Below, one piece after another: positions 4,811-32,387 of a stretch of DNA of 32,387 bases (its first letter is position 1; every line of letters begins with the position of its first letter). A program made the translations under genes and the position numbers. The stretch comes from Pseudomonadota bacterium (GTDB taxonomy: Bacteria > Myxococcota_A > UBA9160 > UBA4427). The stretch spans positions 1 through 32,387 of the forward strand of contig JAPUKG010000125.1 of assembly GCA_027295775.1 (NCBI GenBank), in the 5' to 3' direction. The notes beneath the pieces are model-generated. The model did no database searches and had not been told where the DNA came from. It saw only the letters and a list, made by a program, of their open reading frames with translations.

Positions 4811-5940
4811 CCGCGGGGCTCCACCAGGACGAGATCGTCGCGGTGGATGACCTCGTCGCCGTTCGAATATCCTAGCACCCGCGCGATCTCCCTTGTCGAG
4901 TGCCCCTGGATGCGAGCCACCGCCTCGGCCGGGTACGCGGTCAGCCCGCGCGCCACCTCGCGTCCACCCTCGTCGACGCAGGCCACCGAGTCGCCGATGC
5001 GGAAGCGGCCGCGGACCTCCACGACGCCGGCGGGCAGGAGGCTCCGTCCGCGGGTCGTGAGCGCGCGGACCGCCCCTTCGTCGATCACCAGCTCGCCCCG
5101 CGTGCGCGCGGTGAAGGCCAGCCAGTGCTTGCGACTGGCCATGCGCTCGCCCGGCAGGAAGAGGGTGCCCACGTCGTCTCCGTCGATGACGCGCTCCACG
5201 ATGCCCGCGGTTCGCCCGTTGCAGAGCACGGTGGCCGCTCCCGACTTCGCGGCAGCGCCGGCCGCCTCGAGCTTCGTGATCATGCCGCCGCGACCGAAGG
5301 AGCTGTCGGAGCCCGCCGCCGCCCTGCGGATCTCCGGCGTGATCTTCTCCACGGTCTCGATCAGGGGCGGGATGGGACTTCCGGCCACGGGCTTCGCAAC
5401 GTGGAGACCGTCTACATCCGTCAGGATGATCAGCAGGTCGGCCCCCACCAGGTTGACGATGGTTGCGGACAGGTTGTCGTTGTCCCCGAAGCGGATCTCC
5501 TCGGTCGAGACCGTGTCGTTCTCATTCACCACGGGAACGACGCCCAGCCGCAGGAGCTCGAGCAGCGTGTGCCGCGCGTTCAAGAAGCGCTCGCGCTCCT
5601 CCAGGCCGTCGCGGGTCAGCAGCACCTGGGCCACCTGCCTTCCCAGCTTCCCGAAGCGCCGCTTGTAGAGCTCGACCAATCCGATCTGACCCACCGCGGC
5701 GGCGGCCTGCATCGCCGGGATCGAGCCGCGGAGCTGCTTCCAGCCGAGCTCGCTCGCGCCCACGGCGATCGAGCCCGAGGAGACGATCACCACCTCTCGT
5801 CCCCCGTCCATCAGGGCCGAGACCTGGCGGGCCAGCTGGGTGAACGCGCGCGGGCGCACTCCGCCGCTTCCGATCAGCGTGCTGCTCCCCACCTTGACGA
5901 CCACGCGCCGGACGCGCTTCATGAGCTGGCGCCGGTTCAT
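4807..5940 (-). CDS. proB: Glutamate 5-kinase with C-terminal PUA domain
   Basis: A 377-residue ProB, phosphorylating glutamate to gamma-glutamyl phosphate, the first and usually proline-inhibited step of proline synthesis. The amino-acid-kinase domain begins VVVKVGSSTLI and contains IVSSGSIAVGASEL, VPVVNENDTVS, FGDNDNLSA and the FGRGGMITKLEAA block. The last ~90 residues (from about ELVIDEGAVRAL) form the PUA domain found in most bacterial ProBs. The ATG at 5940 overlaps the obgE stop as ATGA and is preferred over the internal ATG seven codons later. ProB and ProA act in sequence, so their adjacency is functional. Confidence 0.96.
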   Translation of the reverse strand: MNRRQLMKRVRRVVVKVGSSTLIGSGGVRPRAFTQLARQVSALMDGGREVVIVSSGSIAVGASELGWKQLRGSIPAMQAAAAVGQIGLVELYKRRFGKLGRQVAQVLLTRDGLEERERFLNARHTLLELLRLGVVPVVNENDTVSTEEIRFGDNDNLSATIVNLVGADLLIILTDVDGLHVAKPVAGSPIPPLIETVEKITPEIRRAAAGSDSSFGRGGMITKLEAAGAAAKSGAATVLCNGRTAGIVERVIDGDDVGTLFLPGERMASRKHWLAFTARTRGELVIDEGAVRALTTRGRSLLPAGVVEVRGRFRIGDSVACVDEGGREVARGLTAYPAEAVARIQGHSTREIARVLGYSNGDEVIHRDDLVLVEPRG

Positions 5941-6977
5941 GATCCCACCGCGCTCCCGACGGCGTCGAGAGCGGTGACCATCTGGCGCAGCAGCTCGGGT
6001 GCTCCCTCCCCGGTGGCCCCGGACGTCCACACGAGCGCGGCGCAGCGCGAGCGCAGCGCGTCCTCGACCGCCGTCAGGCGACCGCGCTCCGAGACCACAT
6101 CGACCTTGTTGAGCGCCACGATCTCCGTTCGCTCCAGGAGGGCCGGCTGGTAGCGGCCCAGCTCCTTGCGGACGACCTCGTAGTCGGTGATCGGGTCGCG
6201 TCCCTCGAACTCCATGGCGCCGACGTCGAGCAGGTGGACCAGCACGCGGGTCCGCTCGATGTGGCGCAGGAACCGGTCACCGAGGCCGACGCCCTTGCTC
6301 GCGCCCTCGATCAGCCCCGGGATGTCGGCGACGACGAAGCGCCGGTCGTCCAGCTCGGCCACGCCGAGCGAGGGCACCAGGGTGGTGAACGGATAGCTCG
6401 CCACCCGCGGCCGGGCGGCGGAGATGCGACGCAGGAGCGTCGACTTCCCCGCGTTGGGGAGACCGATCAGACCGACGTCCGCCACGAGCTTCAGGGTCAG
6501 GCGAAGGGAGCGGGTCTCGCTCGGCTGCCCCGGCTTGGCGAAGTCGGGCGCCTGGCGCGTCGAGGTGGCGAAGTGGGAGTTGCCCGCACCGCCCCCGCCG
6601 CCCCGGGCCAAGACGAAGCACTGGCCGTCCTCGGACAGGTCGACCAGCGGCTGCTCTCCGCCGGCGCCCTCGTCGAATACCACCGTGCCGACCGGAACGC
6701 GCAGCTCCACGTTGCGCCCGGCCACCCCGTTCTTTCGCGCGCCCTGTCCGCGGGCCCCCGCATCGGCGCGGATCTCGCGGCGGTAGCGGTAGTCGAGCAG
6801 CGTCCTGAGGCCCGGGTCGGCCACCAGCACCACGTCTCCGCCCTTCCCCCCGTCGCCACCGTCCGGCCCGCCCCGGGGCACGAACCTCTCCCGCCGCATG
6901 CTCACGCACCCGTCCCCCCCGCGCCCCGAGGACACGGTGATGCGGACTTCATCCACGAAGGCGTCGGTGGGCTTCAT
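5937..6977 (-). CDS. obgE: Obg-family ribosome-assembly GTPase
   Basis: A 346-residue Obg/CgtA GTPase, needed for large-subunit maturation and stress signalling. The glycine-rich Obg fold occupies residues 1-160 (GRGGDGCVSMRRE, GGPDGGDGGKGGDVV, GGGGGAGN). The GTPase domain follows with P-loop GLPNAGKST at 172-180, switch FTT, DIPGLIEGAS and NKVD. There is no long C-terminal OCT domain; the protein ends soon after the G domain, as in E. coli-like short forms. It is the first gene of the housekeeping operon. In most bacteria rplU and rpmA lie directly upstream; here that position is taken by ~50 bp and then the structured repeat. Confidence 0.97.
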   Translation of the reverse strand: MKPTDAFVDEVRITVSSGRGGDGCVSMRRERFVPRGGPDGGDGGKGGDVVLVADPGLRTLLDYRYRREIRADAGARGQGARKNGVAGRNVELRVPVGTVVFDEGAGGEQPLVDLSEDGQCFVLARGGGGGAGNSHFATSTRQAPDFAKPGQPSETRSLRLTLKLVADVGLIGLPNAGKSTLLRRISAARPRVASYPFTTLVPSLGVAELDDRRFVVADIPGLIEGASKGVGLGDRFLRHIERTRVLVHLLDVGAMEFEGRDPITDYEVVRKELGRYQPALLERTEIVALNKVDVVSERGRLTAVEDALRSRCAALVWTSGATGEGAPELLRQMVTALDAVGSAVGS

Positions 6978-7030
6978 CGCGGCGGAGACATTAGCCCCGA
7001 TGGGGACAGCCTACACCGAGCCGCGCCTCC

Positions 7031-7446
7031 AGCCTTCTGAACTTCGCTCAGCTCACACCAGGCGAAGCCTGGTGTGGCCTCGCTGCGCGGTCGCGTCTGT
7101 GCCCCGAGGTCTAACGACTGCCGTGCACGCTTCCTTGCCGCATCGGGCCGTGCCTGGCCCTACCATGGTCGCCCGTTGCCTCTGTGGCACTGACCCTCGA
7201 CGGAAGGCTGTTTCTTCCTACGGCGCGAAGCGCTTCCTGTAAGGGGGTGGGTGGGGGTCGTCGCGCGGAGGGCCTCAAGGCCCTGACCGGAACCATTCAG
7301 CAACCCCCAGGACCTTTGCAGCACCCCCGATGCCCACCCCCCGAGGCTTGTGGGTCGGCACGGTGCCCAGATCCGCTTCAAGCCACGCTTTGTCACCGGA
7401 TGAGAGGCCCGGAGCGCGACGACCCCCACCCGCCCCCAGGAGGAGA
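7031..7446 (-). repeat. Left copy of a ~415-bp structured intergenic repeat
   Basis: Read on the minus strand, this segment aligns end to end with 31939-32337 at roughly 80% identity or a little more by hand, including a perfect 25-nt match (7279-7303). Together with short flanks it fills the whole gene-free stretch between obgE and the lipoprotein gene at 7465. It begins 19 bp past that gene's stop and ends about 50 bp before the obgE start. Predicted structure on the minus strand: a 24-bp outer stem, an inner pairing (7398-7406 with 7366-7374), an AGGGCC/GGCCCT hairpin at 7269-7284 and a terminal 10-bp hairpin at 7054-7076. I do not recognise the family. Confidence 0.85.
7243..7437 (-). repeat. 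195-bp inner unit with 24-bp near-perfect inverted termini (left copy)
   Basis: The G-rich arm 7243-7266 and the C-rich arm 7414-7437 are complementary at 23 of 24 positions. The arm is built of runs of five, three and five guanines followed by TCGTCGCGC. As RNA this would close a long stem around about 147 nt; as DNA it resembles the terminal inverted repeats of a miniature element. No target-site duplication is visible at the edges, and sequence beyond the termini is also conserved between the two copies, so a simple miniature transposon is not the best explanation. Confidence 0.8.
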
Positions 7447-7464
7447 CCTCGCGTCCTCGCGGAG

Positions 7465-7827
7465 CTAGAGACCAGCCTCTTCCCGCGGGTCGTAGTCGAC
7501 GCGGATGGCCTTGAGTGCGCCCGAGTACTGGTTGCGCGAGAAGACCACGCGGCCCATGCCCCGGTACAGCCAGTCCGTGCGCCGCGTATCGGGGCCCCAG
7601 TAGAAGGGAATCCAGCGCTTGCCGGTCTCATAGGCGACGGCGTGATCCGGATCGCCCAGGACCTCGCGCACCCGGACGTCGCTCATCCCGAGCCGCACCC
7701 GCGAGAGGGGACTGCTCGCCGGGATCGCCGCCGCCTCGTCTCCGGAACGAGGCCCGGATCCGGGGGCACAGCCCACGACCGCGGTGAACGCGGCGGCGAG
7801 AAGCAGCAGCGGGATGCCAGCGGTCAT
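7465..7827 (-). CDS. Small BamE/SmpA-like outer-membrane lipoprotein
   Basis: A 120-residue predicted lipoprotein. The N-terminus has a hydrophobic signal (IPLLLLAAAFTAVVGC) ending in a lipobox with Cys20. The mature part contains RLGMSDVRVREVLGDPD, the pattern of SmpA/OmlA/BamE-type domains, followed by strands including WLYRGMGRVVFS. BamE itself assists beta-barrel assembly in the outer membrane; whether this protein does is unknown. The ATG at 7827 has a GGTGG sequence eight bases upstream; an in-frame GTG at 7839 is the alternative. It is divergent from the ketosynthase gene with about 60 bp between starts, so it may be co-regulated with the pigment locus. It is followed 19 bp later by the structured repeat. 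Confidence 0.7.
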   Translation of the reverse strand: MTAGIPLLLLAAAFTAVVGCAPGSGPRSGDEAAAIPASSPLSRVRLGMSDVRVREVLGDPDHAVAYETGKRWIPFYWGPDTRRTDWLYRGMGRVVFSRNQYSGALKAIRVDYDPREEAGL

Positions 7828-7852
7828 CGGTGAAACCACCGTTCGCCGTCAG

Positions 7853-31435: not shown

Positions 31436-31917
31436 AGCTCGGGCCGATCTTCGTCACGGTATCGACCGCCGCGGCCGTCTCCGTGGCCGGGTGCGAGTCC
31501 CTGTACCTCGCCCTGTACCGGCCTCCGACGCTTCCCGACTGCCCGGGCGAGCTGGTGCCGACCGGGGCGATTCCCGGCGAGTTCGTGTGGCGCGAGCGCG
31601 TCCGCGTGGTGGGGGGCGACGTGGAGGCGACCTTCGACCTGGTCATCGAGAAGCGCGCCGACCAGCTCGTCCTGGTCGGCTTCAACGAGTTCGGAGCCAA
31701 GGCGTTCTCGGTCGTGCAGCGCGGAACCGAGGTCGAAACCCTGCGCCACCTCGGCCCCGCCACCCCCGTCCCCCCCGAGAACATCCTCCGCGACCTCCAC
31801 CGGGCCCGCCTGGGCGCGCCCCCGGGCGACGCCACCATCGAGGAGAGTGCAGGCGGGACGGAGATCGACAATCCAAGCTGCGGTTATCGCGCTACGTGGG
31901 TCCGGGCAGTCTTCTGA
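31432..31917 (+). CDS. DUF3261-like outer-membrane lipoprotein
   Basis: A 161-residue lipoprotein. Signal KLGPIFVTVSTAAAVSVAGC ends in a lipobox with Cys21. The mature part (GEFVWRERVRVVGGDVEATFDLVIEKRADQLVLVGFNEFG) is beta-rich and resembles the DUF3261 lipoproteins that accompany APE loci; their function is unknown but presumed to be in outer-membrane placement of the pigment. The TTG start at 31432 overlaps the lyase stop as TTGA, consistent with the overlap habit of the whole locus. The structured repeat begins about 20 bp after its stop. Confidence 0.75.
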   Translation: MKLGPIFVTVSTAAAVSVAGCESLYLALYRPPTLPDCPGELVPTGAIPGEFVWRERVRVVGGDVEATFDLVIEKRADQLVLVGFNEFGAKAFSVVQRGTEVETLRHLGPATPVPPENILRDLHRARLGAPPGDATIEESAGGTEIDNPSCGYRATWVRAVF

Positions 31918-31922
31918 ACGGT

Positions 31923-31946
31923 GGGTTTCCTCCTGGGTTTCCTCCT
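31923..31946 (+). repeat. Perfect 12-bp tandem duplication at the repeat boundary
   Basis: GGGTTTCCTCCT occurs twice in a row (31923-31934 and 31935-31946), immediately before the G-rich arm. The left copy of the element has a single TCTCCTCCT at the same place, so the duplication is specific to this copy. Confidence 0.8.
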
Positions 31947-32337
31947 GGGGGTGGGTGGGGGTCATCGCGCTCCGAGGCCTCTAATCCGTCGGCAAAGCGT
32001 AGCTTGAAGCAGATTAGAGCACCGTGCAGAACCACAAGACTTTGGGTGGTGGGCATAGGGGGTTCTGTAAATGTCGTGGGGATTGCTGAATGGTTCCGGT
32101 CAGGGCCATGAGGCCCTGCGTGCGACGACCCCCACCCACCCCCTAGAAAAAGCGCTTCGCGCCATAGAGCGAAGCAGCCTTCGGCGGAGGGTCAGTGCCA
32201 CCAAGGTAGTGGGCAGCCATGGTAGGCACAGGCACGGCCCGAGGCCGCAAGGGAGCGTGCACGGCAGTCGTTGAGACCGCGGAGCCCAAACGCGACCGCG
32301 CAGCAGGCCGGTAGGCCTGCGAAGTTCAGAAGACTGG
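31939..32337 (+). repeat. Right copy of the structured intergenic repeat
   Basis: It aligns along its length with the reverse complement of 7031-7446, with the strongest match in the first ~205 bp (about 85% by hand). It fills the gene-free end of the window. Predicted plus-strand structure: outer stem 31947-31970 with 32121-32143; an 8-bp stem CTCTAATC/GATTAGAG (31979-31986 with 32012-32019) enclosing a small AAGC/GCTT hairpin; CAGGGCC/GGCCCTG at 32101-32118; and a 7-bp hairpin at 32303-32320. A frame shared with the left copy for about 20 codons breaks at an indel, so it is non-coding. Confidence 0.85.
31947..32143 (+). repeat. 197-bp inner unit with near-perfect inverted termini (right copy)
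   Basis: The arm 31947-31970 pairs with the segment ending at 32143 apart from one A-C mismatch and one G-U wobble. The left copy has its single mismatch at a different place (C-A), where this copy has a pair. Unit length is within two bases of the left copy. Confidence 0.8.
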
Positions 32338-32374
32338 ACCGCGCAGCGAGCCGGAGGCGAGCGGAGTTCAGAAG
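32296..32374 (+). repeat. Two tandem tail modules (CCGCGCAGC ... GTTCAGAAG)
   Basis: Module 1 (32296-32332) and module 2 (32339-32374) both begin CCGCGCAGC and end GCG(A/G)AGTTCAGAAG, 37 and 36 nt long with six bases between. Module 1 holds a perfect 7-bp hairpin with a GGTA loop; the middle of module 2 (CCGGAGGCGA) does not form an obvious one. The left copy has one such module (7034 to about 7088) with an unrelated hairpin. The window ends 13 bases after module 2, so more modules may follow. Confidence 0.65.
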
Positions 32375-32387
32375 GCCGGGCGCCAGT

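Follow-up and report, generated by a model that had tools for sequence, protein, structure and literature searches.

Large structured RNAs of the kind listed in Rfam, HEARO among them, have many stems and occur in many copies. The bacterial MITEs, ERIC and Correia included, are short, non-autonomous, palindromic repeats that are dispersed between genes and have imperfect inverted ends. The BOX elements of pneumococci are modular repeats whose transcripts would fold strongly; no transposase has been identified for them, and they lie between convergent genes more often than expected, an excess that was read as the sign of mobile, tolerated elements (PMC3049150). REPs are palindromes tagged with GTAG or CGTC that often lie near RAYT genes (PMC3733652), and in Escherichia coli those within 15 nt of a stop codon have been reported to cause ribosome stalling and mRNA cleavage (PMC12306157).

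The window (the whole stretch of DNA analysed, 32 387 nt) is one entire contig of a 3.98-Mb draft genome that is 91% complete, and carries two copies, A and B, of a structured element (Table 1). As the original prediction had it, these are two real structured copies with the same stems: they are 83–85% identical in alignment, the 24-nt arms of the outer stem can be located in both, and inverted matches found with a repeat finder between 7113–7342 and 32044–32272 show complementarity of 81% over 144 nt and of 90% over 101 nt. The GGCC hairpin is, as described, closed by ATGA on a 7-bp stem in copy B and by TTGA on a 6-bp stem in copy A, the placing of the element at gene 3′ ends was correct, and the element has no Rfam match at either the gathering or a permissive threshold (the single match returned, to a snoRNA, was a chance one). 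For each half of copy B the predicted fold is stronger than in any of 200 dinucleotide shuffles (z −4.3 and −2.9). The tail hairpins of the two copies are unlike each other. Of the bounds first proposed for copy B, the start at 31939 falls within the left end of the element, where the family's left motif GGGTTTCCTCC lies at 31923 and the upstream ORF stops at a TGA (31915–31917) inside the terminal-repeat remnant; the right end is at 32337, and a second REP-like unit comes after it.

Table 1. Positions in the window of the two repeat copies and their parts.
Feature	Position	Strand	Basis
Repeat copy B, left terminal-repeat remnant to right terminal repeat	31907..32337	+	Alignment to copy A and other copies
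Repeat copy A, between an ORF (7465–7839, −) and obgE (5937–6977, −)	7029..7450	−	Alignment
Copy B left terminal-repeat remnant CAGTCTTCTGAAC, inverted relative to right end	31907..31919	+	Local match to CCAGCCTTCTGAACTTCGC, 0/1000 shuffles as good
Left boundary motif of the repeat family, GGGTTTCCTCCT, two tandem copies	31923..31946	+	Copy alignment
Copy B outer stem, left arm, 24 nt	31947..31970	+	Sequence, fold, stem alignment
Copy B outer stem, right arm, 24 nt	32120..32143	+	Sequence, fold, stem alignment
Copy B GGCC hairpin, CAGGGCC-ATGA-GGCCCTG	32101..32118	+	Sequence, stem alignment
Copy B 3′ helix, first arm, family consensus GCGGCAAGGGAGCGT, tandem G.A mismatches	32244..32258	+	9/10 standard pairs identical, 18 copies
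Copy B 3′ helix, second arm ACGCGACCGCGCAGC	32290..32304	+	Invariant, 18 copies
Copy B tail hairpin, GCAGGCC-GGTA-GGCCTGC, REP-like, stem exchanged between copies	32303..32320	+	
Copy B right terminal repeat CGAAGTTCAGAAGACTGG	32320..32337	+	23 own-genome occurrences at ≤1 mismatch; reversed-pattern control 0
Second REP-like unit ACCGCGCAGCGAGCC-GGA-GGCGAGCGGAGTTCAGAAGGCCGG, unit type found order-wide	32338..32379	+	Sequence searches
Copy A outer stem, left arm	7414..7437	−	
Copy A outer stem, right arm	7243..7266	−	

The copy number of two originally given proved far too low. A covariance model built on the 3′ domain of the element gave 31 dispersed matches in the same genome, which we take as about 31 copies, and BLAST with the element gave 51 pieces. 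The element is non-coding, from ~150 to 430 bp long, and no associated ORF was found in copies having both ends. Identity among copies is 70–98% in the core, so that recent movement is unsupported. Many copies lie at contig ends, as is usual for repeats in drafts, and the draft mixes strains; L013 and L014 apparently represent one locus in two strains. Two pairs of contigs (L068/L078 and L074/L079) considered as strain variants are really 141-base assembly overlaps.

Beyond this genome the full element gave no convincing match to the covariance model in 79 other genomes of the order and nothing in 29 other genomes of the family. Across the order, matching is essentially limited to the final 30 bases, which form a REP-like palindrome, GCGCAGCGAGCC-GGA-GGCGAGCGRAGTTCA, and two weak matches to the model (genomes G052 and G059, E about 0.004–0.008) are probably this tail unit. 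An exact-pattern scan of GTDB contigs returned three matches in unrelated bacteria, about the chance expectation; viral contigs gave no exact-pattern match, and plasmids and phages no match. Judging from the sequences searched, the repeat family is confined to this organism. Many genomes of the order have the tail unit GCGCAGCGAGCC-GGA-GGCGAGCGAAGTTCA close to gene ends, as single or tandem units (e.g. L031, L033, L034 and L039); it is apparently an undescribed REP family with tandem G.A mismatches.

Alignment of the copies reveals a modular element, in which middle parts are present or absent between conserved ends. Common to the aligned copies are the left end GGGTTTCCTCCTGGGGG, the outer stem, the 3′ domain and the right end (a hairpin followed by GCGAAGTTCAGAAGRCTRG), but about 10 copies lack the middle, outer stem and inner stems included. 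Two copies at unrelated loci (L011 and L016) have the same internal deletion junction, with no evident microhomology, and also have neighbouring variants in common, so that a deleted form was itself copied. Another deletion is the same in L022, L025 and L078 and lies at a short direct repeat, GGGTCA; on its sequence it could have arisen more than once. The copy at L009 is interrupted between outer stem and 3′ domain, at about 1438–1500 of that locus, by a GC-rich palindromic repeat of another kind.

The right end carries an imperfect inverted terminal repeat, CCAGYCTTCTGAACTTCG, of which remnants are seen at some left ends. When this repeat was sought at the left side of 20 copies, four (L001, L008, L015 and L022) had a match that none of 1000 shuffles equalled, in three (L003, L009 and L017) the match was marginal, and in the remaining copies it was absent. 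Reading of the junctions revealed no target-site duplication in copies with both ends, although old copies may have lost theirs. None of the 23 sites with the right-end pattern was recognized as belonging to a transposase-bearing autonomous relative, the draft being one that breaks at repeats. A retroelement origin (group II intron or retron) was also considered and was rejected for want of a reverse transcriptase, there being no RVT_1 match in the 91% complete genome.

Comparison with relatives gives a second view of the insertions. In one gene (L079) the protein ends KKKGLEKPAF* here and KKKGLEPRSS* or KKKGLEPQSS* in its orthologs: the PAF and the stop are supplied by the end of the element, the original last codons and stop having been replaced. 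For another gene (L015) ortholog alignments end at residues 441–444 of 446, in C-termini that are not cleanly readable, which as a sequence comparison is consistent with the same kind of C-terminal replacement. rpmA and obgE are adjacent and free of the element in five family members; in this genome each borders a copy: rpmA, on contig C418 (L008), leads into one, and obgE, on contig C30 (the window), has copy A upstream. This split may be the product of a rearrangement between copies, or the assembly may have joined two places through the repeat; the join of the flanks at copy A is accordingly doubtful. In the window (5937–7465), obgE is preceded by copy A and then by an unrelated biosynthetic cluster, in place of the rpmA–obgE order of the relatives. 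The cluster (7830–31435) encodes an ammonia-lyase, a beta-ketoacyl synthase, two acyl carrier proteins, a FabG-like reductase, phytoene-desaturase-like and halogenase-like enzymes and an exporter-like protein, and resembles an aryl polyene or flexirubin-type pigment cluster. Synteny at L005 provided no usable empty site. One gene end is present on two contigs, at L010 (C456) and L022 (C420), with 98.6% identity over 284 bp, and the element it carries is reversed in one relative to the other, CTAG standing at the junctions; on sequence the arrangement suggests a local inversion or independent insertion.

In a raw count, at least 13 of the 24 loci that could be assessed have the right end of the element ~10 bp or less from the stop of a convergent gene. 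The loci accepted, with peptides read by eye, were L005, L012, L015, L016, L017, L020, L021, L022, L062, L070, L074, L078 and L079, and in five of them (L012, L015, L016, L021 and L079) the stop codon is the element's own TGA. Another right end (L007) is probably at a convergent stop too. In several loci the left end is 8–44 bp from a further stop. A gene starts beyond the right end at L011, L013 and L026 and, as read by eye, at L006, where an automatic call of a gene end was rejected as the reverse strand there holds the start of a membrane transporter. Directly after the element in the right flank of L013, just upstream of the gene start, is a palindrome, TTTTTGACGGATCGTCAAAAA, that is perhaps an operator.

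The original prediction held that differences between copies often keep or move pairing, a claim that failed when more copies were compared. Covariation was compared with shuffles using 6–18 copies per helix. In the outer stem no measure rose above shuffles: the right arm is near-constant and the left arm freely variable, and one seeming change on both sides was an alignment effect at an indel. The outer-stem mismatch that had been read as preserved pairing is C.A in most copies and A.C in copy B, with the left arm changed against a near-constant right arm, so that pairing has been lost and left unrepaired. The GGCC hairpin likewise had no covariation above shuffles, nor did the 3′ helix or two small stems; the 3′ helix, with two 15-nt arms and tandem G.A mismatches, is nearly unvarying. 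Only the 7-bp tail hairpin swaps stems. Here AGGCC/GGCCT, GGGGC/GCCCC and GAGGC/GCCGA interchange, giving more paired cells than any of 500 shuffles, but these are block exchanges, hence few events, and are located in the REP-like part. The covariance-model search and covariation test that had been put forward as a check found copies throughout the genome but no covariation for most of the element, an outcome that the original prediction had itself named as a refutation. Its proposal that RNA is the selected product is not supported.

Constraint is evident in the 3′ domain when variants are divided by how they are distributed. Of the variants present in more than one copy, the 35 helix columns hold 2 and the 82 other columns 154 (P about 1e-22, with cells treated as independent). 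Private variants number 4 in the helix versus 32 elsewhere (P = 0.01), or 5 versus 23 (P = 0.21) when the locally rearranged L021 is left out. This fits source copies being constrained in the 3′ helix and inserted single copies not being clearly constrained, although the numbers are small and gene conversion between copies is possible, the variants that separate L013 from L014 being family-wide ones. As shared variants are depleted in the 3′ helix and private ones are not clearly so, the structure would be needed for spread more than at each site.

Set beside the described systems, the element resembles the BOX of Streptococcus pneumoniae in its modular, variable middle, its non-coding nature, its predicted stable fold, the lack of a known transposase and the capacity to create or alter ORF ends (PMC3049150). 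It differs in that modules are lost by deletion and not repeated and in being found in one organism only, and the likeness described here is one of organization. With MITEs it shares small size, non-autonomy, palindromes, intergenic dispersal and imperfect inverted ends, but the left terminal repeat is weak and, as far as the sequences go, the resemblance stops short of MITE membership in the strict sense, neither a target duplication nor a partner transposase having been found. The palindromic tail, the stem exchange and the closeness to stop codons recall REPs and REPINs with their RAYTs (PMC3733652, PMC3116915); the whole element is, however, about 10 times longer than a REP, its tail palindrome has neither GTAG nor CGTC tag and it is not beside Y1 transposase genes. 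A large multi-stem predicted structure in many copies is also what HEARO-type RNAs have, but this element is without an Rfam match and, in copies having both ends, without an associated ORF.

These comparisons bear on how the family is to be explained. We consider that it is most probably a non-autonomous, mobile, palindrome-rich repeat family, similar to BOX, ERIC and MITEs and with a REP-like tail, that is spread by an enzyme acting in trans. Mobility is indicated by the dispersal of the copies, by the deletion derivative at two unrelated loci and by insertion relative to relatives; of the clean mobile-element boundaries with target duplications that the original prediction had set against its own RNA interpretation, mobility is thus supported and target duplications were not seen. 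That interpretation, a multicopy non-coding RNA family (a stand-alone RNA or a riboregulator) whose stems are selected as RNA, draws on the strong predicted folding, the near-invariant 3′ helix and the compensatory swaps of the tail hairpin, and has little support beyond folding: the other helices do not covary, about 10 copies have lost the outer and inner stems by large deletions, the family is absent from the rest of the order and from Rfam, and the paired helix shows no clear depletion of private mutations. We judge it very improbable. An artefact of assembly or binning, which the many copies at contig ends and the mixture of strains might bring to mind, can hardly be the answer when copies differ by 2–30%, sit inside contigs between unrelated genes and in one case have altered a protein C-terminus to match.

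The positions at stop codons would also be expected of a portable gene 3′ end, that is, a two-sided terminator or mRNA-stabilizing hairpin retained for that role, as has been proposed for some REPs. The right ends close to convergent stops, the left ends 8–44 bp from another and the reported effects of E. coli REPs near stops (PMC12306157) all speak for such a function, but the stems are not followed by a U-run such as intrinsic terminators usually have, depletion of private mutations is not clear, and insertion is least harmful at these same positions, an argument made for BOX and IS elements (PMC3049150). Such a role would account for retention and not for spread. We regard it as unlikely, if possible. 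There is a small chance that stop codons are targeted by the right end, or that selection favours it there, in which case many unrelated genes would receive one and the same structured 3′ end (sometimes with the last residues PAF as well), which might act as a shared module of post-transcriptional control. Movement of a REPIN-type element by a REP-associated tyrosine transposase (RAYT) has in its favour the REP-like palindrome of the tail, which recurs across the order, and Y1 transposases are commoner where the tail unit occurs (11 of 16 genomes, versus 11 of 44 without it), an association that is confounded by kinship. The tail palindrome nevertheless lacks the GTAG or CGTC tag, reading of 30 Y1 loci across the order revealed no close REP unit other than one near-match at a locus edge, and the sole Y1 transposase in this genome is divergent and does not have the element at its flanks. 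We therefore think a RAYT improbable as the mobilizer. If the family is instead a mobile repeat of the BOX or MITE type, as we favour, an enzyme acting in trans would copy the element to new sites, recognizing it for mobilization by its hairpins and its invariant 3′ helix, and the pile-up at gene 3′ ends would reflect tolerance of insertion there, with the 3′ ends of nearby mRNAs possibly affected as a side effect.

The structured repeat family is thus real and was previously unlisted in Rfam, and is of a kind of repeat already known. It adds a repeat family for a little-studied order and illustrates that strong folding in two copies of a repeat does not imply an RNA gene. The loci at which an end of the repeat lies at a stop codon could be used to test the effects of such repeats on mRNA 3′ ends.
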